A stretch of 36,779 nt of DNA from IMG/VR virus record IMGVR_UViG_3300007276_000125, positions 1 through 36,779 of that record; one strand, given 5' to 3'. This document shows, piece by piece, positions 1 through 35,639 of this stretch. The translations under genes and the position numbers were made by a program. This stretch comes from a virus. Under the pieces are notes generated by a model. That model saw only the letters and a list, made by a program, of their open reading frames with translations, had not been told where the DNA came from and did no database searches. How positions within the stretch are numbered: the stretch's first letter is position 1; the number at the start of each line of letters is the position of its first letter.

Positions 1-1021
1 TAGTACCTAAGTAGGCATAGAATCTCATAGACACTTGAGCAGGGTCAGTAATGAATACTAGACTACATCGGTAATAACCGTCTGTATACTTCTCTATTCT
101 AGCTTCTAGACCACTAGGGTTGGCGGTATGGCTGGTGCCAAGTACTGCTGTTTCAGCTGTTAGATCAAAGGTCGCTCTGGCTGCTGTAGCTAAGCCCTCA
201 AATAGCACGACTGTGTCTTCAGTGCCTGCTTTAACGTCCACGTACATTGTATACACAGTCTCTGCAACACACGTTGCAGCCTGATACATATTATGCGTTG
301 CATTGGTGCCGTCCGCAGTAAGCGTATCAGCAGTTAGAAGGCCATCTGGGCCATTAACACTGTTAGGTGTTACGGTAGTTGCGCCTTTAGTCCATGACGC
401 ATTGTCGAACCTCTTAGCTCGTAACACTATGTTAGTGGCTGCTGGAGCAATAGCCCAACCTGTAGGCTCTTCTGCTTCTGTGTCTATTGCAGCTGTTTTA
501 ACTTGTAGTTGTCTATTCTTATAGGTCTTAGAAGTCGACCGTGTCCATGTCAAAGCGCCAGTAAGCGTATGAGCTGCACTGTTCTTCTTAAGCACGTGGA
601 ATACAGGATTACCTAACCTTCGTGTATTCACGTTGTCCATGTTAATTGTCCTAGCCGCTAACTTAGCCTTTTCCGCATCTGTGAATGCATTTGTATCTGC
701 ATTACTCTCATACGAAGTTTTAACATCAGCTGCAACTAGTAATACTTTTACCCAGTAGCCAGCACCAGTGTTAGAGCTGACTCCGGCAACCGCTGCAGGG
801 TCGTAGATGTAATCCGTGAATAGCACAGTAGTGCTGTAAACTCTAGACCTAGTATATACTGCGATGTCTAAGTCCTGCATCTCTGCTTCTGTAGCTACAG
901 AGTAAGGTACGTCTAACTTAGTTATAGTAGTTGATGCACTATTCCTTGTCTGAGTAGTGTCGCCTAGACCTTGAGCAATGTCTTGCATACCTACAAGGTT
1001 CTTCTTTACATTTCTTATCAT
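1..1021 (-). CDS. Tail fibre or spike protein, N-terminal part (cut by window edge)
   Basis: The frame stays open from an ATG at 1021 to the left edge, about 340 residues, so the C-terminus is missing. The first 30 residues (VKKNLVGMQDIAQGLGDTTQ) resemble the start of the spike at 13643-15820 (VKKSLIGQEDILYGESSVTQ). This suggests a shared domain that plugs both proteins into the tail. The rest is Thr/Ala/Val rich with a beta-sandwich look. From about residue 200 a stretch (FDNASWTKG, ADTLTADGTNATH, then YYRC) resembles the carbohydrate-binding-like modules of phage adhesins. It would act at the virion surface in host recognition. Its ATG overlaps the stop of the upstream gene (ATGA), so the two are translationally coupled. 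Virion adhesin is well supported; the sugar-binding role is inference. Confidence 0.72.
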   Translation of the reverse strand, partial: MIRNVKKNLVGMQDIAQGLGDTTQTRNSASTTITKLDVPYSVATEAEMQDLDIAVYTRSRVYSTTVLFTDYIYDPAAVAGVSSNTGAGYWVKVLLVAADVKTSYESNADTNAFTDAEKAKLAARTINMDNVNTRRLGNPVFHVLKKNSAAHTLTGALTWTRSTSKTYKNRQLQVKTAAIDTEAEEPTGWAIAPAATNIVLRAKRFDNASWTKGATTVTPNSVNGPDGLLTADTLTADGTNATHNMYQAATCVAETVYTMYVDVKAGTEDTVVLFEGLATAARATFDLTAETAVLGTSHTANPSGLEARIEKYTDGYYRCSLVFITDPAQVSMRFYAYLGT

Positions 1022-4000
1022 AGTAGTTTAACCTTCTCTGTTCCTTGCACTATTGCTTGATATCCTCGTTGTTTAAGAGCAAACTCGAGGGCTTTAATAT
1101 TAGATTGAGCTATACCTTCTGCCTCAGCAACTTGTGCTGCAACATCTGGAGTAGCTATCCTAGACACATGAATCTTTGTTTCTTTACCGGATCCCTTAGG
1201 TGATAGTACTTTACCTTTACCATATAGCTTAACTGTTGCACTGTGTGATTTAGCTGCTTCAAGAGCTGCTTCACGCTGTAACTCAAGTACCTTTGGAGCT
1301 AAGTTAACCGAAGGACCTACTTCATCCATAAGCTCTTTAGCGGTCTTAACGTTCAGTGGATTCTCTAACAAGTCTGCTGCTTTAGTTATCAACGCGGCTT
1401 TACGACCAGCTTTGCCTGGTATGAACTGTTGCATCCTAGTCCACACAGAGCTCATTAAAGAGTAGTGTGCTTTCTCTTGCAGGTCAGTAGTTAAACCTTG
1501 CGAGGCATGCGGTATAGTTAGTCCACCAGACTGGTCTAATAGTGGTATGTCGTTCTTAAACACATCGCCAAGTCTGCTGATAGCTTCTTTTAGCTTACGT
1601 GCTTCAGGTGTTGCAAAAGTTGTCCTACCTAACTCTTCCGATAGCTTAGGGTAATTAATAGCTTGGAAACCTTCGCCTTGAGAGAACTTGTTAACTAAAG
1701 CATCGACAACAGCGTTCTCAGATGACGCTTGAGTCTTAGCTGGTAGCTTAGCCATTACGTCTGTCCAAGTCTCATCACCAGAAGTTATATATCTAACCAT
1801 CTTCTTAACTGCTATGGTGTCATCAACACCTGGTGCGGTTAACGATTTGTATAACACATTCTTTTCGACGCCTTTCATATCAGCATATTGCTTCCTAGCC
1901 AATGCCCAGTTACTGCGCCACTCTTTAGGGTTCTCCATAACAATATCAGAACCTTGCTTGATTGATTCGTCAATCTTACTAACTAGCTCTCTGAACGCAG
2001 TTAGTTCAGTTGCCTTCTTAGTACCACGACCGTAGATGAATCCATTAACCATCTGACGCAAGTCAAGCAGATCAGCGAATGTTCTACCGTCAACACGTTC
2101 TCTTATACGCTGAGCTTTCAACATAAATCGCTCTAACGTCGGTACATCGTCTATCTTAGTTTGCATTGCGTCTAGTACAGGGTCAATACCTAGTTTAGCA
2201 TAATCAAATGACCACTTGTTTGCATCAGGCGTGTTAGCTGCTTGAGCTTTTATGTCTCCGTAAAACGACTTCACATCCGTCACATAATTATCTAGGTCTT
2301 TACTAAGGACTTTGTCAATTCGGTCCGGTACGAGCTCTCCAGAGGTCTTAATTAAGTCTTTTGCACGTTTATCTATGTCTAATGACACAATTCGTTTCGC
2401 AGTAGTATCTATTGTACCTACTACGTTCATTATTGCTTCACCACCTGGCTGTGTAGTGATGAAAGAGCTGATCTCCTTGCTACTCTGGCTTCCGTCCATG
2501 CTCATGACTCGCTCAGCTTGTTGAACTATAGCTGCAGCTTCGTCGTCAGATAAGGCCATCATCTCTTTAAGTGCTTGGTTAGCTCCCATCAAGTCGCCGT
2601 TCTTAATCTTACGGTAGAGTCCGGCAGTACCTTTGCCAACAAAACCTAACGCCTTGAAAGCAGGGAAGGCTATTGCATCACCTAACGCACTTGCTTGAGC
2701 TGCATCACGTGCTCTGGCACCAGCGATAGAAGCATTCAAGTCTTGCTGTATCTGAATAGCATTAACCATATAATCAGCTTGACTACCTATAGAAGCAGCC
2801 CCAGCTGCACCCATCATAGAACCAATTAAGCCGCCTGCTAACTTAACCTTAGCACCGCCAGGTACCTTAGCGCCTACTTTAGCACCAAATATACCGCCTG
2901 CAATAGCCGAGCTAATCTCACCGCCTTCAGCTTGTATAGATGCCCAAAACCCAGGGTCTGCATCGACTTTAGTACCATCTGGCATTACTGCCATCCAACG
3001 ACCTTCGTCTGTAACAACGCCAATGTCAGGTCTAGGTGCAGCATCATCAGTTAACCCGTGCTCTCCTACATATTCTAGAGACACACCTAACTTCTCAGCT
3101 TGCTTTATGATACGTAGTCTACTAGCTAACTCTGCTTGTTTAGCTGTCTGCATAGCTTCACCGTTACCAGCCCAAGCTATAGTACGATCTGCTATTGAGA
3201 CCATGTTAGGATAGACTGTTTCTAGCTTAGCTACAAAGTCTACTAAATCCATCTCTTTGTTACTGACTAGTACGTTATAAGCATCCACCTTACTGTTCAG
3301 GTTCTTCATTACACGTTGTTCAGCGTATTCGTCACTCAACTCTTCAGCTGGGTGCAAGAAGCTAGGTAGTGATGTTTCTTTCTTAAACTGCACTAACTCT
3401 GCTTGGTACTGCTCTTTTGCGTCCTCAACTAGCTCTGGAGGTACGACGAACGCACTAGGGTTGTTATCCTTAGAAGCTAATATCTCTTCAGCACGAGTAG
3501 CACTAATAGTGTCTAAAGTCTCAACTTTCTGTTCTTGTGGCTGTTGACCCATCAGATAAGCTTTAACTTCTTCTTCAGTAGCGCCTTGTGCAATAGCTGC
3601 TTGAATCTGTTTAGCTTTGTCAACAGTCTCTGCTATCTCTTCTTCGTCGTTACCTTGATTAGCTAAGTATGCACTAAGTTCTTCTTCAGACGCTCCTTGC
3701 TTCAGCGCCATATAACCTGCAAAGGCACCTGCAACTGGAGTAGAGTACAAACTAAAGTCTTGACGTAAAGTCTTCTCAGTAGGCTTTATAACAGCATATT
3801 CGATGCCTGACTTCTGCTTTAGTGCGACTAGCTTTTTAAACGCATCGAAAGGTGCAAGTTGCCCAGCTTTAACTTGATTAGTGATAGCTGTTGCTTCTGG
3901 ATTACTTATGATGCGAGGAGACTGTAGAAACTCATCAAGCAAGTCGTCCTTATTTGGAGCTCCTTCTAAGTTGTTAAAGAAGTCACCTAACTGTGTAATC

Positions 4001-5043
4001 TCTTTAGGCTCAAATACGGCTTCTACTTCACCTGAACCAACACGCTTAACCTCAAAGTCTGCGCCTGACGCCTTAGCCACCTTCCTAGCTGTATCAAATA
4101 CTTGAGTCTCGTACCATTTCTGTACGCCTGCGCCACGTTGCAGTTTGCCTAAAGAACCTTTAATCGGTATAGCTAACTGCTGCCGACCTTCATTCATAGC
4201 GTCTACTAACTCACGTTCAATACCCTTACGCAGCCATGTCTTCTGATAAGGTGACTCAGGAATGCTAGACTTACCGGCTAATAATTCATCTGCAAATTCG
4301 AAGATATCGTCTACATTTGCACCATTAGCGTGATCAGCTATAACTCCCATGAAGGCTTCTTGATCAGCTCCCGGCTCACCTAGTATTCTTGTTTCCTCAT
4401 CAGTCAAAGGCACGCGACGTATACCGTACCCAATTTTCCTGCCTTGCTGATGCAAGTCTGACTGGACTTCTTGAAGGACACGAGTAGGTGCACCGTCTAG
4501 AGTATCATCGAACGTGCGAGTATGCATCAAGTAATTCTCTTGACCTGTAAAGTGCTCAGACGTATAACGAGAACTTCTACGCCTATCCTGCAGCTCACCC
4601 ATAAAACGCATTAAATCATCGTCGTCTTGGTAGCCTAAGGTACGCGCATATTCTTTAGCAGGCTTTTCGCCCTCTTCTCGGTAGAGTCTTGCAATTTCTT
4701 CACTGTCTTTAGCAGTACCAGGCAAGCTCTGGCCGTCTTGCTTAAATGTGATAACTTTTTCTTTATACGTTGGATTTGTTGCTTCATCGTGTAGACTAAC
4801 CCAGTCAAACTGTGTACGGTCTTGTTCGACTGTCTCGAGAGTGTCTGCACGATTTGTTTCTAGCTTCTTAAGGCCTTCGTCATCGTATCGCGCAGCATCA
4901 TCAATACCAAGTTTAGCAAAGCTAAGTTCATCTTGCTTAACTCCTTTCTTCTTGAGCATTGCTTCAACATTGCTTCCTTTGATAGTTTGCTTCTTAGGAA
5001 ATGCGTCTACCACTTCTTTTAGCACTGACTTTATAGCACCCAT
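1018..5043 (-). CDS. Large polyvalent internal virion (ejection) protein, 1341 aa
   Basis: This very long protein lies in the virion block next to lectin-like and portal genes. Residues about 165-205 contain HFTGQ and EVQSDLHQQGRKIGYG, a signature I associate with the large polyvalent-protein domains of phage and plasmid multidomain proteins that enter the cell with DNA. Around residues 448-500 two copies of an acidic helical repeat occur (QGASEEELSAYL and QGATEEEVKAYL). Around residues 705-760 lies a Gly/Ala-rich, weakly hydrophobic stretch (AIAGGIFGAKVGAKVPGG, LIGSMMGAAGAA), a possible membrane-inserting glycine zipper. The remainder is helical and charged. Length, place and composition fit a DNA-ejection protein like the large inner-core proteins of podoviruses. 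No lytic transglycosylase motif was recognised. The function of each domain is unknown. Confidence 0.68.
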   Translation of the reverse strand: MGAIKSVLKEVVDAFPKKQTIKGSNVEAMLKKKGVKQDELSFAKLGIDDAARYDDEGLKKLETNRADTLETVEQDRTQFDWVSLHDEATNPTYKEKVITFKQDGQSLPGTAKDSEEIARLYREEGEKPAKEYARTLGYQDDDDLMRFMGELQDRRRSSRYTSEHFTGQENYLMHTRTFDDTLDGAPTRVLQEVQSDLHQQGRKIGYGIRRVPLTDEETRILGEPGADQEAFMGVIADHANGANVDDIFEFADELLAGKSSIPESPYQKTWLRKGIERELVDAMNEGRQQLAIPIKGSLGKLQRGAGVQKWYETQVFDTARKVAKASGADFEVKRVGSGEVEAVFEPKEITQLGDFFNNLEGAPNKDDLLDEFLQSPRIISNPEATAITNQVKAGQLAPFDAFKKLVALKQKSGIEYAVIKPTEKTLRQDFSLYSTPVAGAFAGYMALKQGASEEELSAYLANQGNDEEEIAETVDKAKQIQAAIAQGATEEEVKAYLMGQQPQEQKVETLDTISATRAEEILASKDNNPSAFVVPPELVEDAKEQYQAELVQFKKETSLPSFLHPAEELSDEYAEQRVMKNLNSKVDAYNVLVSNKEMDLVDFVAKLETVYPNMVSIADRTIAWAGNGEAMQTAKQAELASRLRIIKQAEKLGVSLEYVGEHGLTDDAAPRPDIGVVTDEGRWMAVMPDGTKVDADPGFWASIQAEGGEISSAIAGGIFGAKVGAKVPGGAKVKLAGGLIGSMMGAAGAASIGSQADYMVNAIQIQQDLNASIAGARARDAAQASALGDAIAFPAFKALGFVGKGTAGLYRKIKNGDLMGANQALKEMMALSDDEAAAIVQQAERVMSMDGSQSSKEISSFITTQPGGEAIMNVVGTIDTTAKRIVSLDIDKRAKDLIKTSGELVPDRIDKVLSKDLDNYVTDVKSFYGDIKAQAANTPDANKWSFDYAKLGIDPVLDAMQTKIDDVPTLERFMLKAQRIRERVDGRTFADLLDLRQMVNGFIYGRGTKKATELTAFRELVSKIDESIKQGSDIVMENPKEWRSNWALARKQYADMKGVEKNVLYKSLTAPGVDDTIAVKKMVRYITSGDETWTDVMAKLPAKTQASSENAVVDALVNKFSQGEGFQAINYPKLSEELGRTTFATPEARKLKEAISRLGDVFKNDIPLLDQSGGLTIPHASQGLTTDLQEKAHYSLMSSVWTRMQQFIPGKAGRKAALITKAADLLENPLNVKTAKELMDEVGPSVNLAPKVLELQREAALEAAKSHSATVKLYGKGKVLSPKGSGKETKIHVSRIATPDVAAQVAEAEGIAQSNIKALEFALKQRGYQAIVQGTEKVKLL

Positions 5044-10352: not shown

Positions 10353-10771
10353 TATACATCCTCCTGTATCACGTCTTTTTCGATCTCTGATACTTCTGTT
10401 TTATCGGTAACGTGGAAAGTCATCCACACTGTATCTTCGTGTACTATAATGGCTCTTTTAGTGTTTGGCTCAGTAACAAAAACGTGAGGACCTTGTACTC
10501 GTACGCAAGTACCGTCTTCTTTAGATATAGTACAGTCGCCACTCACAACAACACTTATATGTTGTGTCTTGTGTCGCTTGCTTGTAATGAGCGTGCCTTT
10601 AGCCATGCTTATGCAACGCAGGTAGGCGCCCTTCGCAAAGACATGGTCTACATGATTAACTATATTAGGCATAGCGAGCATAGCAGTTTCGAGTAACTTT
10701 ATACTCTCTTTGCTAGGTATTACCATAGCTGGGCATATATCTTTAAGCAGTGTACTAGCTATCTGTGTCAT
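10352..10771 (-). CDS. Cupin-fold (RmlC-like) phage protein
   Basis: The last 90 residues show the double-stranded beta-helix pattern of small phage cupins: a GAYLRCISMAKGTLITSKRH strand pair, then QHISVVVSGDCTIS, then a GPHVFVTEPNTKRAII strand and VWMTFHV. His residues in KRHKTQH and in FHV could bind metal or be relics of such a site. The start chosen is ATG at 10771, because it gives the ATGA stop-start overlap common in this genome. A TTG 12 bases upstream is less likely. Such cupins occur among tail genes of many podoviruses, but their function is unknown. Confidence 0.65.
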   Translation of the reverse strand: MTQIASTLLKDICPAMVIPSKESIKLLETAMLAMPNIVNHVDHVFAKGAYLRCISMAKGTLITSKRHKTQHISVVVSGDCTISKEDGTCVRVQGPHVFVTEPNTKRAIIVHEDTVWMTFHVTDKTEVSEIEKDVIQEDV

Positions 10772-11340
10772 ACTTGTGTCCAACCATTAGAAAGTGCCAG
10801 CGCGAATGTGTCACCGGTTCTGTAGAATACTTTAAGGTCTACACCTGTGTCTTCTATCATAACGCTTTGAGTTATCCCACCGCCATTAGTTCTGGCACTC
10901 TCAACGTATATCTGGTATATTGTGAGTGGATTTAAAGGAATAGGCGGGCTAACATAGTTGCTTCCTACTGTACCCATCTGGCCTTTACCTTGGAAAGTGC
11001 TCCACGCAGTGCCGTTGAAGTCGTAGAATACAGAAAGATTAAGGTTGCGGTATTCTATCGTGTATCGTGTAACGTCTGTTATAGCTTGTATAGCATCTAT
11101 ATCATCTGTTATGTCGTCAAGACTAGCCTGTATCTTCGCTACCGCGTCTGATAATGTAGTTACTGAAGTGTCAAGAGCTGACAAATTTACTGCAGGCAAG
11201 TCAGAATCTTTAACGTAAGGGTCACCTGCCCTGTTACCTTCTATGATGTCGATCTGCTCGACTACTTTTTGTAAGTGCTTACGAAGCGCTATTGGTTCAT
11301 CAACGCTTAGTGGTACTTGTGTAAAAGATGTATTAGTCAA
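10768..11340 (-). CDS. Putative small virion (tail) protein
   Basis: The N-terminal 90 residues are helical and heptad-like (LRKHLQKVVEQIDII, then VTTLSDAVAKIQASLDDITDDIDAI), as in trimeric coiled-coil stalks. The C-terminal 95 residues look beta-rich with SSNYVSPPIPL-type loops (residues about 130-138) and end in SNGWTQV. Stalk plus beta head is typical of fibre or needle-like virion parts, so a tail appendage is the best guess. The start codon at 11340 appears to be TTG, overlapping the stop of the tail hub gene, since no better in-frame ATG is near. No family was recognised. Confidence 0.5.
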   Translation of the reverse strand: MTNTSFTQVPLSVDEPIALRKHLQKVVEQIDIIEGNRAGDPYVKDSDLPAVNLSALDTSVTTLSDAVAKIQASLDDITDDIDAIQAITDVTRYTIEYRNLNLSVFYDFNGTAWSTFQGKGQMGTVGSNYVSPPIPLNPLTIYQIYVESARTNGGGITQSVMIEDTGVDLKVFYRTGDTFALALSNGWTQV

Positions 11341-13642: not shown

Positions 13643-15820
13643 CTACCTCACTGCGTTGTAGACACCGTCATTAGGTGAATAGTACAACCTTATTGACATA
13701 GAACCTACAAAGCCGTCACCTGTGAGAGTGGTACCTTTGTTACGATAGTTCTGTACGTATACCTTTTTCTTAGTAGTGTTATCCTGCAGCCAGACACCAT
13801 CTAGTATAGTCTGATTATGGTCGAATCTACCTAAGCTGCGTTCTATATCGAAGAAGTTGATTAACATGCCATGAGCACCTGAATCAGCATCTCTGTTAGG
13901 CTCGCCTGCTTCTTTCGGTGTGCCATATAGCAGTATCTCAGGAGTTATAACATGACCATGTTCGCTAACGTCACCAGTACCAACGTCTAGTTGACCTAAG
14001 CCTCGGAAGTAAGCTCTGTTACACCAGCCATTAGGATCACCAGGTATACCACCTAGTAAACCACCTTGACCTACAGCCATCTGACTATAACCATTAGCTA
14101 TATAAACATCTTTAAGCCACGTCCAAGATGTTCCTTGTGTGTAGCCATGCTTGCTGAAAGTATGTGTAATCGTCACATCGGCAAAATCACCACTGTCGTC
14201 TGGGTGCCTAATCTTAGTAGTCTGTACTATCTGGATAGTAGAACCTGTGAACATGCCATCATAAGGTGCTATGTCTAGTAAGCTGATATCTTTACCATCT
14301 ACATAAGCTATAATAGTTTGTCTTTCTTCATAGCCATGGACAGAGCCTATGAACGGTGTTGAAGCTGCGCCACTACTGTTCAGCCTAAAGGCTATAGCGT
14401 AATCCATAGCTGAATTTGTTAGCTTATAGTAAGTACTTGCTACATTAGAAAAACCATCAAAGGCAGTTTTTACAGTGCTACCTGCAGCATCCGTTAGTGG
14501 TGTGTACACCCTTAAACCTTGTACATCGTGTATGTAGATTCTAAAGTCTGAAGAAGACGCGTGCTTAGTACCTGTGACGGTAACTACGACAGTATGTGTA
14601 GCATCTGTTAGTTCGTCTGCTACGTCAACGCTGATTGTGCTCCCGCTTACACCATAACAATCTAACGTAGGCACCAAGTTTGCCGGTGCACCATCTATGG
14701 TGATAGTAGCTATACCTGCATTAGTAGCTTCTAAGTAGTCTAATCTAAGTCTTGTACCAGTAAACACATAAGTAGCTGTATCAGTAGCAGTGAGAGAATA
14801 TTGATATGGTGCAGACACTACCCAGGTACCTACCAAGGTCATCGCAGCAACACCAACATTGTCATATGTCTCTGCTAAAGACCTGGCAATCGATGTTATA
14901 ATGTAAGGTCGTGTAAAGCCGCTAGAGCCGTCAAAGTTACCTTCAGCGTTATCAAAGCGCCATACACCATTTGCACCTTCATCGTTCAAAGGTGCGATTA
15001 CTTCAAATCTAGTGGCTGAATCTTCTACTAAAGTAACTCGTTGTTTTGTAGTAGCTAACAATGAGTCTAACACAGGCTTTAAACTGCCTTGCTTAGCTAA
15101 CTCAGTTGTTCTTCTTGACACTCTCCAGTTGAACTGGCTAGTCTTAATCTCAGCGCCTCTTTCTAGTATGACATTAGTTTCTGTTGTATCATTGTCTATA
15201 GCGCCTGTAGTTGTTGAGTAGTCACCGTTTGATATAACACATTCCGACATTCCAGCTGCTGAAGTCTGGTCTATAAGCGCCTGGAAGCCTGGCACATCAG
15301 TAGCTACCTTAGATACTCCAAACTGGTCTGAGGTCCAAGGCCCATCTGTGTTCTTTCTTAGCACGAATGCAAGCGATGTATCTACAACACCTGCAATGAT
15401 ATTATAAGTATTCGGAGTCACACTAGAAGCTAAGACTACGTCATATATGCCACCGCCACCACTTCCTGTAGTACGTTCTTTCAGGTTAAGCCCGTTAAGA
15501 CCGGCAGTGTAGCCTGTGTTACTTGTCATCTCTATAATAGTAGCAGGTTGTACGTCTACTTCAATAGTTAACTGAGTCCAAACACCGCCAATATACTCGT
15601 AGTCAATAGGTTGAGTACCATCAGCCTTGTAGTGAGTGCACTTAGTAAACTTAGCAGTGTCTAACGCGTCACGTTCAGCTAGACTATTAACAGGGTATAT
15701 GTTGCGTACCTCGTTAATAGTATAGTTGTTGCCTGCACGAGACTGCGTAACTGAGCTTTCGCCATAAAGAATGTCTTCCTGGCCAATAAGACTCTTTTTA
15801 ACTGTTCGTTGAGCTGTCAT
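13643..15820 (-). CDS. Tail spike / fibre with N-terminal virion anchor
   Basis: Residues 5-40 (VKKSLIGQEDILYGESSVTQ and following) match the start of the fibre at 1-1021 and of many podovirus spikes, and should bind the tail. At about residues 165-205 the segment DQFGVSKVATDVPGFQALID with VISNGDYSTTT looks like the opening of a pectate-lyase-type beta-helix. The expected long helix is then replaced by Thr/Ala-rich beta domains and a C-terminal part with aromatic motifs (NGWCNRAYFRG, SGAHGMLINFF). Its 725 residues and placement beside adaptor and hub fit a receptor-binding spike. The enzymatic activity, if any, cannot be told from the sequence. Start ATG at 15820 overlaps the adaptor stop (ATGA). 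Confidence 0.72.
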   Translation of the reverse strand: MTAQRTVKKSLIGQEDILYGESSVTQSRAGNNYTINEVRNIYPVNSLAERDALDTAKFTKCTHYKADGTQPIDYEYIGGVWTQLTIEVDVQPATIIEMTSNTGYTAGLNGLNLKERTTGSGGGGIYDVVLASSVTPNTYNIIAGVVDTSLAFVLRKNTDGPWTSDQFGVSKVATDVPGFQALIDQTSAAGMSECVISNGDYSTTTGAIDNDTTETNVILERGAEIKTSQFNWRVSRRTTELAKQGSLKPVLDSLLATTKQRVTLVEDSATRFEVIAPLNDEGANGVWRFDNAEGNFDGSSGFTRPYIITSIARSLAETYDNVGVAAMTLVGTWVVSAPYQYSLTATDTATYVFTGTRLRLDYLEATNAGIATITIDGAPANLVPTLDCYGVSGSTISVDVADELTDATHTVVVTVTGTKHASSSDFRIYIHDVQGLRVYTPLTDAAGSTVKTAFDGFSNVASTYYKLTNSAMDYAIAFRLNSSGAASTPFIGSVHGYEERQTIIAYVDGKDISLLDIAPYDGMFTGSTIQIVQTTKIRHPDDSGDFADVTITHTFSKHGYTQGTSWTWLKDVYIANGYSQMAVGQGGLLGGIPGDPNGWCNRAYFRGLGQLDVGTGDVSEHGHVITPEILLYGTPKEAGEPNRDADSGAHGMLINFFDIERSLGRFDHNQTILDGVWLQDNTTKKKVYVQNYRNKGTTLTGDGFVGSMSIRLYYSPNDGVYNAVR

Positions 15821-16770
15821 TCAAATGCATTCCTATATTGAGTTCTATGATGAGGACCTTTGATACCATCAGTACGACTATGTTGCCTAGCTAATTCTAG
15901 CTCTCTGTCGTATTGCACTAACGCTTTAGCACTCTTTTGTTGATTTGCAGTGTCATGGTCGTCATCATAAGCATTAGCTATAACATAGTACTTCATAGCC
16001 TTGTCGTATATCGTAGGTATTGACAATGTATCTGTCGCTGCGTTTGTTACTTCAGCTGGAGCTTGAGTATACCAGATCTTCACGAATCCTATGGTCTCAT
16101 TTACCGAGGTAACAACACCATAAGGACTGTCTATAACTTCGGTGTCGACAGCAGGGTCGAAGAAGCTTGTAGCTGCACCATAGACGCTATCGAAAGTGTA
16201 GTTAGGTAAATCAGGTGTCTCTATGTCAACAACTACACCATACAGCTCGTCACCAACAAACACAACAGGTCCAGAGTTCTCAAAGGTGTACTCAGCAGCT
16301 GCTACAGAGTCATTAGGTATAGGGTAGAAACGAATCTTAGAAGGGTCTCTATTGTCGTAGATAACTGCTTCTATCTCACTCCCTGTTGTGTCTTCCCAAG
16401 TTATCTGCCGACTATTAAAATCTGAATTAATAATGGAGCCTCTGTTGCGCTCCCAGGTGCCGGAAGTTGTATCTGCGTATATCTGGCGTCTAGCATTCTC
16501 ATCCATCGTTGTGTACGATTCTAGAGGTATCTCGTACGATTCTGAGGACGCACGAAGGATACGGTAACAATCAGCAGGGAGGTCGTACTCAGCTTGACCG
16601 ATTACCAGGGGTATGTCTACAGTAGCTTTAAACAGCTCTGTATGTATGACAAGGTCTTCTTGAGCTTCACTAAGTAAACGTAACAACCTAGCGTCTGTCC
16701 AGCGTTCTTTATCTGGATCGGCTAATGTGTCACGTGCACGTGATAAGATATTTTCAATACGAGTAGGCAT
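15817..16770 (-). CDS. Head-tail adaptor protein
   Basis: The N-terminal third has the pattern of podovirus adaptors: a short helix with ILSRARDTLAD and ERWTDARLLRLLSEAQEDL (residues about 7-40), then FKATVDIPLVIGQAEYDLP and a YRILRA strand. The middle is beta-rich and the C-terminus is helical and basic (YDRELELARQHSR). Adaptors of this type form the ring directly below the portal. An inserted Asp/Thr-rich beta section between about residues 150 and 240 makes it longer than the P22 gp4 type. It follows the capsid genes after a hairpin at 16794-16819 and overlaps the spike start by 4 bases. Confidence 0.7.
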   Translation of the reverse strand: MPTRIENILSRARDTLADPDKERWTDARLLRLLSEAQEDLVIHTELFKATVDIPLVIGQAEYDLPADCYRILRASSESYEIPLESYTTMDENARRQIYADTTSGTWERNRGSIINSDFNSRQITWEDTTGSEIEAVIYDNRDPSKIRFYPIPNDSVAAAEYTFENSGPVVFVGDELYGVVVDIETPDLPNYTFDSVYGAATSFFDPAVDTEVIDSPYGVVTSVNETIGFVKIWYTQAPAEVTNAATDTLSIPTIYDKAMKYYVIANAYDDDHDTANQQKSAKALVQYDRELELARQHSRTDGIKGPHHRTQYRNAFE

Positions 16771-18607: not shown

Positions 18608-18636
18608 AGTATACTAAAATATCTCCTTTTTGTAAG
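18608..18636 (-). promoter_or_regulatory. Candidate promoter for the capsid gene
   Basis: On the minus strand CTTACA (18636-18631) and TATACT (18613-18608) are separated by 17 bp. They sit at the very end of the scaffold gene and lead to an AT-rich leader of about 150 bp before the capsid ATG. The -35 resembles the TTTACA/TGTACA hexamers of four other candidates in this window. It would add capsid transcripts beyond those that run through from scaffold. No experimental support exists. Confidence 0.45.
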
Positions 18637-19324
18637 AATTTTGCATGTCTTTCTCGACAGCTGACGCATCTGGTACATGCGAGCCACCTGCGTTACTGAG
18701 ATTAGGTTCTTCTTCCTTAGTCTCGCCCATACCAATAACCTTATTAGCTGTCAAGTACGCGGACGCTTTAACAACAAACTCATCAAAAGTAGTCTTACCT
18801 GTCTCAACATCTTTGAGCATACGTGGTGGGATGTCGTTATCGATAACTTCTTGAGTTAACTGGGCGGTAGGATGTGCTTCGTTATACTCTGCTACAACAC
18901 GAGTCCGACGTTCTACTTCAGTCTCATTCTTAGCTACTTCTTTTACCTTAGCTCTACGCTCACCAAACTTCTCTTTGGTGACTTGAATATGCTCTTCTTT
19001 CTTAGCTATATAAGCGTCTACGTCGCTGCCTTTTAACTCAGCTAATTCAGCGCGGTCTTCACCAGAGAGGTTGGCTAACGCGTCTTCTTCCCATTGTTTT
19101 GCCATTTCTGTGTTCTCAGACTGCAGCGCAACGTTTTCATTCTTTATCTTGCTATACGAAGAATAAGTATCTCGACGGCGTACCTCTATTTTAGCAGCGT
19201 ACATAGCGTGCTCAGAAGCCTCGACACCTTCAGGTAATACGAGCTTACCTTTCTCATTCTTAGTTAATTGTGCTACAACCGAGTCTACTTCGGCTGCAAA
19301 TGTGTCATCATTTGGAGTGCCCAT
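18614..19324 (-). CDS. Scaffolding protein
   Basis: This 236-residue protein is acidic, helical and rich in Glu and Lys, with a central coiled coil (residues about 58-160, for example NENVALQSENTEMAKQWEED) and no hydrophobic core segment. A disordered C-terminus follows, with a short basic ending (NSYKKEIF) that could contact the capsid protein. It lies immediately upstream of the major capsid gene, the standard place for a scaffold. It also contains KTTFDEFVVKASAYLTAN, a helical element near 188-205. No protease domain is seen. It is the first gene of the leftward virion block. Confidence 0.75.
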   Translation of the reverse strand: MGTPNDDTFAAEVDSVVAQLTKNEKGKLVLPEGVEASEHAMYAAKIEVRRRDTYSSYSKIKNENVALQSENTEMAKQWEEDALANLSGEDRAELAELKGSDVDAYIAKKEEHIQVTKEKFGERRAKVKEVAKNETEVERRTRVVAEYNEAHPTAQLTQEVIDNDIPPRMLKDVETGKTTFDEFVVKASAYLTANKVIGMGETKEEEPNLSNAGGSHVPDASAVEKDMQNSYKKEIF

Positions 19325-22011: not shown

Positions 22012-22092
22012 ACTTAATAAACTACTAAGCTTTCTTAATAAATTTAATAAGGTATTAAGCAAGCCTCTTTAAACTCCGATCTCCTATAGAAT

Positions 22093-22146
22093 AAAGCCGC
22101 CCAGGCAGCCTCCTAGCCCCTTATCCTGGTATATAAACAGCTTTTT
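22093..22146 (+). terminator. Weak rho-independent-like terminator after the packaging block
   Basis: Outer arms AAAGC (22093-22097) and GCTTT (22140-22144) enclose an inner CCAGG/CCTGG pair, followed by a run of six T (22142-22147). The stem is interrupted and long-looped, so efficiency is doubtful. It is well placed to end the RHH-terS-terL-gp49 transcript. Confidence 0.3.
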
Positions 22147-22263
22147 TAATAACTAAATGTTATTGTACTTTCAACTCCAAACATGTTAAGCACTCTCGTA
22201 GCATCTTGTTACAATTGATAGCTTTACTTATGTCTCAAAGTATGATAATCGCGCGCACGCGTT

Positions 22264-22372
22264 CTATTTATATAATATGACAACATCAAATTCAACTCGA
22301 GGTCATTCAAATCACTCCATATCAAGTTTTAAGCCTAGGCCTTGATGTTTATATTACTTTAATAAATAACTC
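22264..22372. repeat. Diverged direct repeat, left copy
   Basis: This stretch resembles 23285-23391. Both run CTAT(T/A)TATATAAT, about 50 bases of weak similarity, then CCATAT.CAA.TTTTAA..CTAGGCC.TGAT and an AT-rich end with AATAAA. The best-conserved part is 22317-22350. The two copies flank the 139-aa gene at 22630-23049. They look like an old duplication of a control segment, not a mobile element, because no terminal inverted repeats or transposase are present. Confidence 0.45.
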
Positions 22373-22426
22373 AGCGACGAGCTTCGTTGGAGATCAAATA
22401 TTTATTCATTTATTTAATAAAAAGAG

Positions 22427-22455
22427 TTTACAAACTAATCAAAACGCGAGATAAT
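22427..22455 (+). promoter_or_regulatory. Sigma-70-like promoter for the 139-aa gene
   Basis: TTTACA (22427-22432) and GATAAT (22450-22455) are 17 bp apart. Transcription from about 22462 would give a leader of roughly 168 bases with three hairpins before the ATG at 22630. Confidence 0.5.
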
Positions 22456-22464
22456 AATCCCAAG

Positions 22465-22613
22465 TTGATTGACACTTAAATCAATGAGTTCATGAAGAAG
22501 CCCTTCATGCTAGTTCTTTAACAGTCTGATAGCGCTGGTGCAATTCCGCGCAATAGTTTTGGTTGGTTTCTAAATACTTACTAATGTAGTAGGCATTTAG
22601 AAATCAACCAACT
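22465..22613 (+). promoter_or_regulatory. Structured 5' leader with three hairpins
   Basis: The leader holds three stems. TTGATT/AATCAA lies at 22465-22484, at the very 5' end. A perfect 7-bp stem CATGAAG/CTTCATG lies at 22491-22509 with a 5-base loop. Finally there is a long inverted repeat at about 22559-22613. Its left arm TTGGTTGGTTTCTAAAT pairs with ATTTAGAAATCAACCAA over 17 bp with one G-U, and the loop itself contains TACTA/TAGTA. The last stem ends about 16 bases before the start codon and so may affect ribosome access, RNA processing or stability. No known riboswitch class was recognised. Confidence 0.5.
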
Positions 22614-22629
22614 AAAAGAGAGAACTATT

Positions 22630-23049
22630 ATGACTATTAAAACTGCTTTTGTTACTTTGCATAATCTTATAAAAGAGAATGAGGGTAAGAAGTTGACACC
22701 TACACTTATAGCTAAGTTAGAAGAACTAATGATAGCTAAGGTTATGGCTAAGACTTTTAAGAAAGACGATGATGGCAATGTTACTCATGTATTTTGTTAC
22801 TACCATAAAGAATGGGAAGATGTAAGTGAAGTGCCTTATGGCAAGAAAGCGAGCACTGCTCATGGACTTAACACAATGTGCAAGCAAGGTGTTAGTCATT
22901 GGTCAAAGCAACAAAGAGTAATGAAGCAAGCTAAGAGTACATTGCTTGATGACGTCACTAATGGAGTTGTAGAGCCTAGTGAGTTGCCTAACTTGTTAGC
23001 TGAAATAGAAGAAACTGCCAAAACTATCGTAACTTATACTACTGAGTAA
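22630..23049 (+). CDS. Unknown protein with CYYHK / GKKAS...MCK...GVS motifs (paralog 1)
   Basis: This 139-residue protein has a helical N-terminus, then VTHVFCYYHKEWEDVSEV at residues about 51-68, then YGKKASTAHGLNTMCKQGVS at 70-89, WSKQQRVMKQAK, and a short acidic C-terminus. The Cys-His pairs (CYYH and MCK) could bind a metal, but this is a guess. It is a clear paralog of the protein at 24809-25303, and I associate the pattern with hypothetical proteins of marine phages. It has its own promoter, a structured leader and a terminator, so it is a single-gene transcription unit. Strong independent control suggests an early, abundant product. Function unknown. Confidence 0.7.
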   Translation: MTIKTAFVTLHNLIKENEGKKLTPTLIAKLEELMIAKVMAKTFKKDDDGNVTHVFCYYHKEWEDVSEVPYGKKASTAHGLNTMCKQGVSHWSKQQRVMKQAKSTLLDDVTNGVVEPSELPNLLAEIEETAKTIVTYTTE

Positions 23050-23056
23050 CCTATAT

Positions 23057-23078
23057 GGCCGGCATTGTTCGGCCTTTA
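23057..23078 (+). terminator. Short hairpin terminator after the 139-aa gene
   Basis: GGCCG (23057-23061) and CGGCC (23070-23074) form a G+C-rich 5-bp stem with an 8-base loop, followed by TTTA. The stem begins 8 bases after the stop codon. The T run is short, so it may end transcription only partly. Confidence 0.5.
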
Positions 23079-23185
23079 CTCGTTAAACTAAGTTAATATT
23101 GAGCAAGTTACCATTGTAGTAGTCTATTCATTTAATAATATATATTTTAATAATATAATATAATAATAATAGAGCTCAAAAATGG

Positions 23186-23204
23186 GCTAATGAGAATCAT
23201 TCTC
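23186..23204. promoter_or_regulatory. Fur-box-like operator
   Basis: The 19-bp site GCTAATGAGAATCATTCTC matches the classic Fur consensus GATAATGATAATCATTATC in 16 of 19 positions by my count. It contains the perfect inverted repeat GAGAAT-C-ATTCTC. It lies in non-coding DNA between two genes. If bound by host Fur, iron status could affect transcription here. The promoter it would act on is not clear. Confidence 0.45.
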
Positions 23205-23284
23205 GTTTAGGAATGTACCACCGAAAAAACGCATATTACTAAAACAAAACTACTTAAATTGATATTGCGTATATCTTCGTTTGT

Positions 23285-23391
23285 CTATATATATAATGCA
23301 CGTCAGACTTAGCCCAGTTTAGTCCTATTTCGTCCCATATTCAATTTTAATACTAGGCCCTGATAAGATGTCATATTTTGAAATAAAGACC
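23285..23391. repeat. Diverged direct repeat, right copy
   Basis: This is the partner of 22264-22372. The conserved core runs from CCATATTCAATTTTAA at 23335 through CTAGGCCCTGAT to the AAATAAAGAC near 23381. It lies between the Fur-box-like site and the GTTGCATATGCAAC palindrome. Confidence 0.45.
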
Positions 23392-23483
23392 ATATACAAG
23401 CCTTTTGAAAGTCAATTATTCAATTTAGTCTTGTTAAATCAAAGTATACTCAGCATCAAAATCAGATATATATGCTTGTACTA

Positions 23484-23519
23484 GTTGCATATGCAACCAA
23501 TGTCAGCAACTTGCAACTT
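23484..23519. promoter_or_regulatory. 14-bp palindrome and GCAACTT repeats (operator-like)
   Basis: GTTGCATATGCAAC at 23484-23497 is a perfect palindrome. It is followed within 10 bases by GCAACTTGCAACTTGC, two direct copies of GCAACTT whose GCAAC equals the palindrome half-site. Four half-sites in 36 bp suggest binding of a dimeric regulator, possibly one of the phage HTH proteins. Confidence 0.45.
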
Positions 23520-23648
23520 GCTAGACATATCGTCATTTTATTAAAACAAGCTCAAAAAGTCAGGCCGTTTTTAGTAAAAAGTGAATTACTTTCTCAGTTA
23601 TTATTTTGAATCTTTCTAAATTAATACATAATCAATAGGAGAACACAC

Positions 23649-24028: not shown

Positions 24029-24458
24029 GTGCTTACCTCAGTACGACATACTGTGGCGTAAATACGCTTGGTGGTGTGCTACTCAAGTCGTCCACCTCGC
24101 TGACGACCCTAGAGTACAAGAGTGCTTAGACGTCGTTTGGCGTTACACAGAAGGCAAAGCTACCGACGCCGAGCTACAGTCAGCACGGTTAGCAGCACGG
24201 TCAGCAGCAGAGTCAGCAGCATGGTCAGCAGCATGGTCCGCACGGTCAGCAGAGTCAGCAACAGAGGCAGCAGCAGCAGAGTCAGCAGCAGCAGAGTCAG
24301 CAGCAGAGTCAGCAGCAACACGGTCAGCAGAAGCAACACGGTCAGCAGAAGCAGCATGGTCAGCAACAGAGGCAGCATGGTCAGCAGCAGAGGTAGCAGC
24401 ACGGTCAGCACAAGAGAGAAAGCTAAGAGAGCTACTAACAACAGGAGAATTAGGATGA
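24018..24458 (+). CDS. C-terminal part of the Ala-rich repeat protein (no own ATG)
   Basis: The frame is open from 24018 to TGA at 24456-24458. It continues the upstream part with AIKCLPQYDILWRKYAWWCA and TQVVHLADDPRVQECLDVV, then GKATDAELQSARLAA. From about 24180 it becomes a tetrapeptide-like repeat of the SAAx type, where x is E, W or R, for about 77 residues, ending in ERKLRELLTTGELG. No ATG, GTG or TTG starts it, which supports its being the second half of the gene at 23867. The stop overlaps the next ATG. A Ser/Ala helix with Trp or charged residues every fourth position is expected; function unknown. Confidence 0.6.
   Translation, partial: GAIKCLPQYDILWRKYAWWCATQVVHLADDPRVQECLDVVWRYTEGKATDAELQSARLAARSAAESAAWSAAWSARSAESATEAAAAESAAAESAAESAATRSAEATRSAEAAWSATEAAWSAAEVAARSAQERKLRELLTTGELG
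24180..24410 (+). repeat. TCAGCAGCA-type coding repeat
   Basis: About 230 bp consist of degenerate units built from TCA GCA GCA plus one of GAG, TGG or CGG. Several 12-18 base units are exact copies. The repeat codes SAAx in the frame of the Ala-rich protein. A 195-codon open frame on the same strand (24122-24709) reads the same repeat as Ser/Val/Arg and is spurious over this part. Such arrays change copy number by slippage. Confidence 0.75.
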
Positions 24459-24808: not shown

Positions 24809-25303
24809 ATGGCTACAATTAAGAAAGCGTATCAAGAAATTATCTCTTTATTAGAAGCAAACAGAGAAGCAACTGTTAACGATGTGATTGACAGTGTAAT
24901 CGCTCTAGCATCTGCCAAAACTGGTGGCGGTGGTGGTAAAGCAACATCATTTCACCGTAACGAAGCAGGCGACGTGGTTGCTGTACATTGCTACTATCAT
25001 AAGACTTGGTTATCTCCAGCGTTAATTGAGTTTGGTAAGAAAGCAAGCTCAGCTACTGGATTGAACAGCATGTGTAAAAGCGGTGTCAGCAATTGGACAA
25101 AGCAAGAACGTGCATTTAAGAATGCTAAAGAAGATTTACTCTCTCAGACAGCTGCGGGTGACGTAGATCCAGCAGACTTGAATGCAATGCTTACTGACTT
25201 AGAAGCTGATCGTCAGGCTATCCTACCTATTGACGGCGACTACCAAGGATTTGAGACACTTGACGAGTGCCTAGCAGATCTTGATGCTCGCGGCATGTTA
25301 TAA
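24809..25303 (+). CDS. Unknown protein, paralog 2 of the 139-aa protein
   Basis: This 164-residue protein shares with paralog 1 the blocks VVAVHCYYHKTWLSP (residues about 53-67), FGKKASSATGLNSMCKSGVS (about 72-91), NWTKQERAFKNAKEDLL and an acidic ending. It differs by a Gly-rich GGGGGKA at about residues 39-45 and by an extra C-terminus (YQGFETLDECLADLDARGML). The N-terminal helices correspond but are diverged. Like paralog 1 it is a one-gene unit with its own promoter and a terminator (25339-25407). Possible roles are a host-takeover or DNA/RNA-binding protein; there is no evidence to choose. Confidence 0.7.
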   Translation: MATIKKAYQEIISLLEANREATVNDVIDSVIALASAKTGGGGGKATSFHRNEAGDVVAVHCYYHKTWLSPALIEFGKKASSATGLNSMCKSGVSNWTKQERAFKNAKEDLLSQTAAGDVDPADLNAMLTDLEADRQAILPIDGDYQGFETLDECLADLDARGML

Positions 25304-29135: not shown

Positions 29136-29348
29136 ATGAAGTATGCATTTATTATAGTATTACTATTAATAGGTTGTCAGGAGGGTGGCTTCAAATCTGG
29201 ACACCAAATGGAAGACCAAGTGTGCTTAGCATTAGGTAAATATGTCATAGTCACTTCTGTAAATGACAAGGCGGGCACAGCTACTACTCGTAACCACAAC
29301 GGCATTATCATAACTTATCCCATAACTGCACTAACATATTGTAAATAG
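29136..29348 (+). CDS. Small lipoprotein
   Basis: The N-terminus is a typical lipoprotein signal: KYAFIIVLLLIGCQ, with lipobox LIGC at residues 11-14. Signal peptidase II would leave Cys14 as the lipid-bearing first residue. The next residue is Gln, not Asp, which would favour the outer membrane by the Lol rule. The mature part is about 57 residues with Cys at about 30 and 69, possibly a disulfide, and a small beta-rich body. Phage lipoproteins of this size often exclude superinfecting phages (T5 Llp is an example). That role is inference. AGGAGAACAAT precedes the ATG. Confidence 0.65.
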   Translation: MKYAFIIVLLLIGCQEGGFKSGHQMEDQVCLALGKYVIVTSVNDKAGTATTRNHNGIIITYPITALTYCK

Positions 29349-29357
29349 GAGAACAAC

Positions 29358-29525
29358 ATGAACAGTAGATTTGACGGTTTATCAAAAGAAGAACAGTCAG
29401 CTATGATGGCTAAAGACTTAGCGGACTTCAAAGGCGAGATTAAGCAGATATCTATGGCAGCGAGTAGCATGCCTAAGATAATCTTATCAAAAGCAGAACG
29501 CAAACGTATGGAGAGTGCAGAATGA
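29358..29525 (+). CDS. Micro-gene, 55 aa, unknown
   Basis: It starts at ATG 29358 after AATAGGAGAACAAC, the same strong site as for the lipoprotein. It reads NSRFDGLSKEEQSAMMAKDL, then FKGEIKQISMAASSMPKI, and ends KAERKRMESAE. It is helical, soluble and basic-acidic mixed. The stop overlaps the next ATG (AATGA). No family was recognised. The ribosome site and tight coupling make it likely to be translated. Confidence 0.55.
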   Translation: MNSRFDGLSKEEQSAMMAKDLADFKGEIKQISMAASSMPKIILSKAERKRMESAE

Positions 29526-31455: not shown

Positions 31456-31986
31456 ATGACAAGTGTATTGAGTAAAACTGTAACACCTAAAGGTGAGTTG
31501 GCTTGGGTAACTATAACTGGTGAAGGCAAAGAAAATATGTCTGGCAAGTTACAGTACAAAGCTGATATTATATTAGACCCTAAAAACAACGAAGCTGACA
31601 AAGCTTACATCGCTAAGATTGATGCTTTCTGGGCTAAGAACAAGCCAGCAAACTTCAAGAAGAAACCTAAGTCATTAGGCTACTACTTCTGTGAGAAGCT
31701 CTTAGACGCTGATGGTAATCCTCAGAAAGACGAAGAAGACCAGTATGTTTATAATCCTGATGGTAAGGTATCGGTATCATTTAAGACATCGACAGTTTGG
31801 CCAGACGGTAAAACTAAGACGGTCAAGACACGTAATGCTAAAGGCAACGTTGTTCAGCTGGGTGAAACTCAAATCGGTAACGGCTCTATGGGCTACGTTG
31901 CTGGTGCGATGGACATCTATAAGCAGGAAACTAAGGCAAAGATAGTAGCATCAGCAGGTGTCACGATGTATCTTGATGAGATTTAG
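31456..31986 (+). CDS. ssb: Single-stranded DNA-binding protein (T7 gp2.5-like), ending before its acidic tail
   Basis: The 176-residue core has the pattern of phage gp2.5-type OB-fold proteins: LSKTVTPKGELAWVTITGEG at the start, then KLQYKADIIL, then an insertion with FWAKNKP, then VSVSFKTSTVWPDG and QIGNGSMGYVAGAMDIY before a VTMYLDEI ending. It coats ssDNA at the replication fork. In T7 an acidic C-terminal tail recruits polymerase and helicase. Here the frame stops with TAG right after LDEI. A strongly acidic stretch continues in the same frame after it (see 31987-32118). With that tail the protein would be about 220 residues, close to T7 gp2.5 (232). Own promoter at 31370. Confidence 0.72.
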   Translation: MTSVLSKTVTPKGELAWVTITGEGKENMSGKLQYKADIILDPKNNEADKAYIAKIDAFWAKNKPANFKKKPKSLGYYFCEKLLDADGNPQKDEEDQYVYNPDGKVSVSFKTSTVWPDGKTKTVKTRNAKGNVVQLGETQIGNGSMGYVAGAMDIYKQETKAKIVASAGVTMYLDEI

Positions 31987-32118
31987 CTAACTAAACTAGA
32001 TGAATGATCCCAGGATGCTTTTGCAGGACACAAGGCAGATGAAGAAGACGGCTGGACGGGCGAAGACGAAGATGCTTTTGCAGGTACCGAAGAGTCTACT
32101 GCTAAAGTTAAGCTTTAG
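31987..32118 (+). other. In-frame acidic tail sequence beyond the SSB stop
   Basis: Directly after TAG 31984-31986 the same frame reads LTKLDE, then TGA (32005-32007), then SQDAFAGHKADEEDGWTGED and EDAFAGTEESTAKVKL, ending at TAG 32116-32118. There is no other stop in 44 codons. The content is what an SSB acidic tail looks like, with DAFAG twice, and the DNA GATGCTTTTGCAGG is repeated at 32014 and 32071. No start codon lies in this frame after the TGA, so it cannot be a separate gene of ordinary type. It is either a decayed tail or one reached by stop read-through. Confidence 0.6.
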
Positions 32119-32123
32119 AAAAC

Positions 32124-32162
32124 AAGCTGGCGGCAGTACCCTCTTCAGCTGACCGCCGGCTT
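32124..32162 (+). terminator. Strong hairpin after SSB (terminator or processing site)
   Basis: AAGCTGGCGG (32124-32133) pairs with CCGCCGGCTT (32153-32162) in a 10-bp stem with one G-U and a 19-base loop. Only TT follows, so it is not a classic rho-independent terminator. It may mark a processing site or protect the 3' end of the SSB mRNA, with the next gene 38 bases downstream. Confidence 0.5.
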
Positions 32163-35072: not shown

Positions 35073-35639
35073 ATGCAAGATATATACAATAGAGTAGCTA
35101 AGTGGAATTCATTACGCTACGAACAAGAATATGACGCACAACTAACTCATACACTACTTGTTGAAGAGTACTCTGAGTGGATACAAGCGCCTGACCAAGT
35201 TAACGACATTAAAGAGTTAGCTGATATAGTTTATGTTGCGCTAGGTGCATTGTGGAAGTTAGATGTGAACGACGAAGAAGCACAAGCAAGTGCAGCACTA
35301 TTCTTAGAAGGCTTACTAAATCAGTCTGAATTGATGCCAGGATTCTTCGTAGGTGCTTTGTTAGACCAGAATGCAGTTGTCTATGCTGAAGACCAAGTGA
35401 AGCTCATGCACAACATAATTGGCTGCGCATTAGCTCAAATGCAATGCATCGGTTTAGGACAGCATCATTGTGTGGCTGTATTGAATGCTGTTTGTGATAG
35501 CAATGATACAAAGACAGTCAAGAAGACTGCTAGTGACGTGAAAGCTAATGATAAAGACAAAGGTCATTACTACCGTCCAGCAGAACCTAAAATCCGCCTA
35601 ATCATGGAGACAGCAAAATGTCTATCGAAAACACACTAG
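35073..35639 (+). CDS. All-alpha NTP pyrophosphatase (MazG/dCTPase-like)
   Basis: Residues 30-55 (VEEYSEWIQA and IKELADIVYVALG) give the Glu-x-x-Glu (32, 35) and Glu-x-x-Asp (48, 51) metal-binding pairs of the MazG/HisE/dUTPase superfamily. The protein is helical, 188 aa, with an added C-terminal part (KTVKKTASDVKANDKDKGHY, then YRPAEPKIRLIME) typical of phage members. Such enzymes hydrolyse a dNTP to dNMP and PPi. T4 gp56, which destroys dCTP and dUTP, has this fold. The substrate here is unknown. Its end overlaps the DUF6378-like gene. Confidence 0.7.
   Translation: MQDIYNRVAKWNSLRYEQEYDAQLTHTLLVEEYSEWIQAPDQVNDIKELADIVYVALGALWKLDVNDEEAQASAALFLEGLLNQSELMPGFFVGALLDQNAVVYAEDQVKLMHNIIGCALAQMQCIGLGQHHCVAVLNAVCDSNDTKTVKKTASDVKANDKDKGHYYRPAEPKIRLIMETAKCLSKTH

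Follow-up and report, generated by a model that had tools for sequence, protein, structure and literature searches.

The window, i.e. the whole analysed stretch of DNA, is an IMG/VR virus record of 36,779 bases. Genomes of its relatives measure approximately 41-47 kb, and the shorter window is therefore probably incomplete. An ORF for a predicted ssDNA-binding protein (SSB; Table 1) has among its neighbours in the window genes for a family A DNA polymerase, followed by a thymidylate-synthase homolog, and for a Dda-like helicase. The genes follow each other in the same order in Pseudoalteromonas phage PH1 and in Edwardsiella phages. The full succession of helicase, SSB, small gene, DNA polymerase A and thymidylate synthase was common to the window, PH1, Vibrio phage VPMS1, Edwardsiella phages KF-1 and ETP-1 (Kafunavirus) and five viral contigs (L001, L052-L055).

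Table 1. Features of the SSB locus, with positions numbered from the first base of the window.
Feature	Position	Strand	Description
SSB ORF as deposited	31456..31986	+	176 aa, gp2.5-like OB fold, TAG end
First in-frame stop, TAG	31984..31986	+	K, Q or R codon in 34/34 relatives; inside predicted last beta-strand
Sense codons LTKLDE between the stops	31987..32004	+	strand end and linker; homologous (LTKLVE in L001), colinear, no insertion
Second in-frame stop, TGA	32005..32007	+	F or Y codon in 34/34 relatives
Acidic tail code SQDAFAGHKADEEDGWTGEDEDAFAGTEESTAKVKL	32008..32118	+	conserved; without in-frame start codon

The SSB ORF matched phrog_112 (gp2.5-like SSB; E 2.3e-10, residues 6-169), and a profile built from 23 of its homologs matched T7 gp2.5 (PDB 1je5) at E 1.6e-6. 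When the structural model of the window protein (pLDDT 91.7) was compared with the PDB by Foldseek, the best matches, all with a probability of 1.00 and with modest TM-scores of 0.40-0.57, were T7 gp2.5 (1je5; E 4.5e-6) and the DUF2815-type SSBs of Enterobacter phage Enc34 (ORF6; 5odj/5odk/5odl) and Enterococcus faecalis (4klk), with E-values down to 3.7e-7. The VPMS1 homolog is annotated as DUF2815, whereas a Pfam search of the window protein returned no family at E 0.001. Judged by these profile and structural-model matches, the gene is a gp2.5-type SSB with an OB-type fold; the phrog_112, 1je5 and Enc34 matches thus bore out its identification in the first-pass annotation. T7 gp2.5 resembles the window's relatives in that an OB-type fold is followed by an acidic, disordered tail, and differs from the deposited window protein, which is without this tail. 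The C-terminus of Enc34 ORF6 is likewise acidic and unstructured, and an Enc34 SSB deprived of its 21 C-terminal residues showed unchanged ssDNA binding but became able to bind dsDNA at similar affinity (PMC5686142).

Translation of the frame 31456-32118 yielded YLDEI-stop-LTKLDE-stop-SQDAFAGHKADEEDGWTGEDEDAFAGTEESTAKVKL-stop as its C-terminal part. The stretch behind the SSB ORF comprises 44 codons when TAG and TGA are counted, of which 42 are sense codons, and it closes with an original-looking TAG at 32116-32118. Translation thereby confirmed the earlier description of an acidic tail that is preserved in frame and broken only by TAG and TGA. The tail code includes the peptides SQDAFAGHK and ADEEDGWTGEDEDAFAGTEESTAK. 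Its post-TGA part aligned with the tail of L001, the closest relative (34 residues, 68% identical; E 4e-16 in that comparison), so that it cannot be attributed to chance. The two DAFAG motifs of the tail are encoded by an exact 14-base direct repeat, GATGCTTTTGCAGG, at 32014-32027 and 32071-32084. A 50-aa ORF in the +1 frame (ATG 32000, span 32000-32152) overlaps the tail and would encode a basic peptide; it probably arises as a side effect of the codon composition of the tail. A strong hairpin without a T run (32124-32162, z -4.45) lies directly past the tail's final stop.

Related phages and viral contigs supplied 34 SSB genes for comparison, an initial 27 and a further seven that included the close relatives L052-L055; SSB identity in the viral-contig set was 42-73%. 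In all 34 genes the tail was read straight through, directly continuous with the body and with sense codons at both stop positions, and it was homologous and nearly always acidic. None of the relatives' SSBs ended naturally at the TAG site without a tail. At that site the five nearest relatives (L001, L052-L055) had lysine codons, with Q, K or R in others, and at the TGA site all had F or Y; stops at either site were confined to the window. The SSBs of PH1, VPMS1, KF-1/ETP-1, L001 and L052-L055 all have, unlike that of the window, an unbroken tail. C-termini among the 34 relatives were mostly -PRL, -KPKL, -KVKL or similar. The C-terminal residue of T7 gp2.5 is phenylalanine, in contrast to the -PRL and -KVKL ends of the window's SSB family. 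A search of viral contigs with a degenerate pattern found no close relative with the same stops, although near-identical records may be hidden from it, and no relatives of the window at all were found in genome contigs and plasmids.

The position of the first stop in the fold was taken from a model of a full-length relative (L053), in which the last strand covers residues 162-179 (pLDDT about 95) and the tail, residues 186-218, is predicted to be disordered. The window TAG aligned with L053 residue 176. It is thus located inside the predicted last beta-strand and not past its end, which overturned the earlier statement that the protein stops after its last strand. A product that ends at this TAG therefore also loses four strand residues; K179, invariant among aligned intact homologs, is lost with them, as is the tail. 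A complete last strand plus acidic C-terminal tail was absent from the deposited window SSB and present in all 34 relatives.

Substitution patterns were used to assess whether the tail code had decayed. Over 40 codons comparable between the window and L001, the tail showed a pS of 0.86 and a dN of 0.16, with a dN of 0.23 for the body; a second alignment gave 0.88 and 0.15 for the tail and 0.24 for the body. Synonymous sites were saturated in this comparison. With outgroups included, 4-5 unique replacements were assigned to the window tail and 2-3 to that of L001, and those of the window were mostly residues also present in relatives. Its unusual tip, KVKL, was common to two other relatives (L019 and L024). 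By these codon comparisons the window tail is, apart from the two stops, without decay. As a rough bound, 4 unique replacements are compatible at 95% with no more than about 9 expected ones, which over approximately 92 nonsynonymous sites amounts to approximately 0.1 changes per site, against a per-lineage synonymous divergence of roughly 1 or more. We therefore infer from the aligned sequences that any neutral phase of the tail would occupy at most about a tenth of the branch. Of the first-pass proposal that the tail "decayed only recently", the recency fits these figures and the decay does not, since nothing besides the two stops points to it.

Stop codons elsewhere in the window behaved as in the relatives. 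Among 34 complete gene ends, 17 were TAA, 9 TAG and 8 TGA. The TAG-ended portal gene and ORFs 18614-19324 and 35073-35639, as well as the TGA-ended ORFs 1018-5043, 10768-11340 and 15817-16770, ended at the same residue as several relatives or one residue off, and past several such conserved TAG or TGA ends the following sequence was unrelated to that of the relatives. Compared with the relatives' real genes, since a comparison on all their open frames was swamped by antisense shadow frames, other window genes with homologs contained no internal stops and had similar ends; the few stops reported beside other window genes lie outside the gene itself. Otherwise-invariant residues were violated 35 times in the window, as compared to 22-41 times in those members of the clade whose scored genes largely coincided with its own. 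No tRNA genes were found in the window (36.8 kb) or in the genomes of seven relatives.

The conserved tail, its unbroken counterparts in 34 of 34 relatives, the lack of recoding and the lack of any other broken gene make it most likely, as far as sequence comparison can tell, that nonsense changes gave rise to the stops very recently in this lineage alone and that the truncation is real, an interpretation that we hold tentatively and at a little under even confidence. The stops would then be present in the virus, and the truncated protein would be the one that is made. An ordinary gp2.5-type SSB gene would recently have lost its acidic tail through nonsense changes, and translation would end at the TAG to give a 176-residue protein without the four final-strand residues and the tail. 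The remaining tail code would be a leftover, translated and kept by purifying selection until close to the present day. If T7 gp2.5 is a guide, the truncated SSB should bind DNA yet recruit partners poorly. In T7, where the gp2.5 tail is considered essential, contacts of the protein with DNA polymerase and primase-helicase have been linked to it; in work by Kim and Richardson from 1994 it was reportedly essential for protein-protein interactions. A tailless phage should therefore be unfit, which counts against a recent lesion. So do the reliance on a single contig, with no close relative found to share the stops, and the number of changes required, at minimum three substitutions. A single change turns a lysine codon into the TAG, and the F or Y codons TTT, TTC and TAT are each two changes away from TGA. 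A change of TGG to TGA would take a single substitution, but W was not seen at that site in relatives. Approximately 4% of single substitutions in the tail create a further stop, so that decay beginning with a second stop would be unlikely but not absurd; the appearance of such a stop before other damage is improbable by drift.

The main rival to a recent lesion, which we consider a serious but less probable possibility, is a sequencing or assembly error at this spot of the single metagenome contig, an explanation that the first-pass annotation had not raised in its own right. Both sites would then be sense codons in the real virus, its SSB would be full-length, and three to four bases within 24 nt (31984, 32006-32007 and perhaps 31999) would have been miscalled in a low-coverage or poor-quality stretch. 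Consistent with such an error, the lesions are tightly clustered within 24 bases, as at a poor read end or in thin coverage, the tail is otherwise that of a functional gene, and the TGA is two changes from the F and Y codons of all relatives. Moreover, a truncation that is lethal or lowers fitness is not expected as a viral consensus, and the stops occurred in no second contig. However, the changes include no indel, being substitutions throughout, and the 19 intervening bases read well. A contig rich in errors was rejected altogether, because the lack of internal stops or frameshifts in other window genes with homologs and the lack of an excess of odd residues at invariant positions indicate that the contig is clean overall; these two observations also weigh against a local error. 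A template-switch origin of the stop patch was tried as well and rejected, with no copy of more than 10 bases found elsewhere in the window.

Readthrough or suppression, which the first-pass annotation had offered as a source of some tailed SSB, appears unlikely. It would have some ribosomes pass the TAG and then the TGA, with Q and W inserted by near-cognate tRNAs or with the help of a suppressor host, so that a little tailed SSB would keep the tail under selection. Conservation of the tail down to its tip agrees with this mechanism, and the family consensus would accommodate Q in place of the TAG and an aromatic residue in place of the TGA. However, two different stops would have to be read in series, which multiplies two low readthrough frequencies, and none of the 34 relatives has a stop at either site. 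No stimulating RNA structure was found 3' of the stops, where the sequence folded worse than shuffled controls (z +1.3 to +1.7), an Rfam search of the region returned no element, and no tRNA gene that might support suppression was found in the window or in seven relatives. Positive evidence for this option was thus not obtained, and a term search of the available literature yielded no paper on stop-codon readthrough in a phage SSB. Other routes to a tailed product were also rejected: a frameshift is closed off by two stops in each of the three frames between 31984 and 32007, separate initiation of the tail by the lack of an in-frame start codon beyond the TGA, and hopping by the colinearity with relatives of the stretch between the stops, which contains no insert. 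An in-frame open stretch also follows the TAG of ORF 29136-29348, in a region that extends to 29525 and looks like a readthrough extension. There, the sequence is TAGGAGAACAACATG, and the TAG overlaps a ribosome site, TAGGAG, six bases before an ATG at 29358; since these mark a separate gene, 29136-29525 represents two small genes. The SSB tail, by contrast, is without such an arrangement.

It is very doubtful that selection favoured the tailless SSB as a real allele that, for example, enables escape from an SSB-sensing host defence. In such a scenario, partner recruitment would be given up to avoid detection, and two successive stops would tighten the truncation. Changes in phage SSBs can free phages from the defence systems Hna (PMC13381803) and AbpAB (PMC10732053), both of which are activated by phage SSB. 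Three escape mutations described for Hna were each missense and each led to loss of an acidic residue (PMC13381803). Escape mutants of Hna and AbpAB carry missense changes, whereas the window SSB has lost its tail, and no defence system has been linked to the window phage.

General recoding, with TAG and/or TGA as sense codons in phage or host, would place tolerable residues at both positions but was ruled out, as had been anticipated for TAG, by the gene ends with TAG or TGA that the window has in common with its relatives, e.g. that of the portal gene. No suppressor tRNA was found in seven relatives or in the window, which at 36.8 kb is shorter than its relatives. Nothing in the window requires a new mechanism.

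Whether the stops are real or errors, the comparison shows that SSBs of this family have the tail as a conserved portion that is ordinarily translated. If they are real, the window phage offers a natural test of whether the recruiting tail of an important SSB is dispensable, and it may bear the imprint of selection by SSB-sensing defences. In the case of errors, the locus illustrates that stop-codon recoding can be mimicked by a lone metagenome contig.

Further observations were made in the window and its relatives. In one relative, the DNA polymerase gene (L069:3001-5381; IMGVR_UViG_3300044657_000526) is split after LSKTYNFSFL by approximately 810 bases that hold an ORF with HNH-endonuclease-like motifs. 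This interruption, in which an Rfam search found no match, is probably an intron with a homing endonuclease. Two early genes of the window, 22630-23049 and 24809-25303, for which Pfam searches returned no family, are related, and the same genes of relatives matched both at about 40-67% identity, an apparent duplication. An imperfect, CAG-rich tandem repeat at 24181-24412 is the source of long ORFs on both strands. Finally, an early gene is flanked by two stretches of approximately 600 bases without clear genes (22012-22629 and 23050-23648), which are possible promoter or origin regions.
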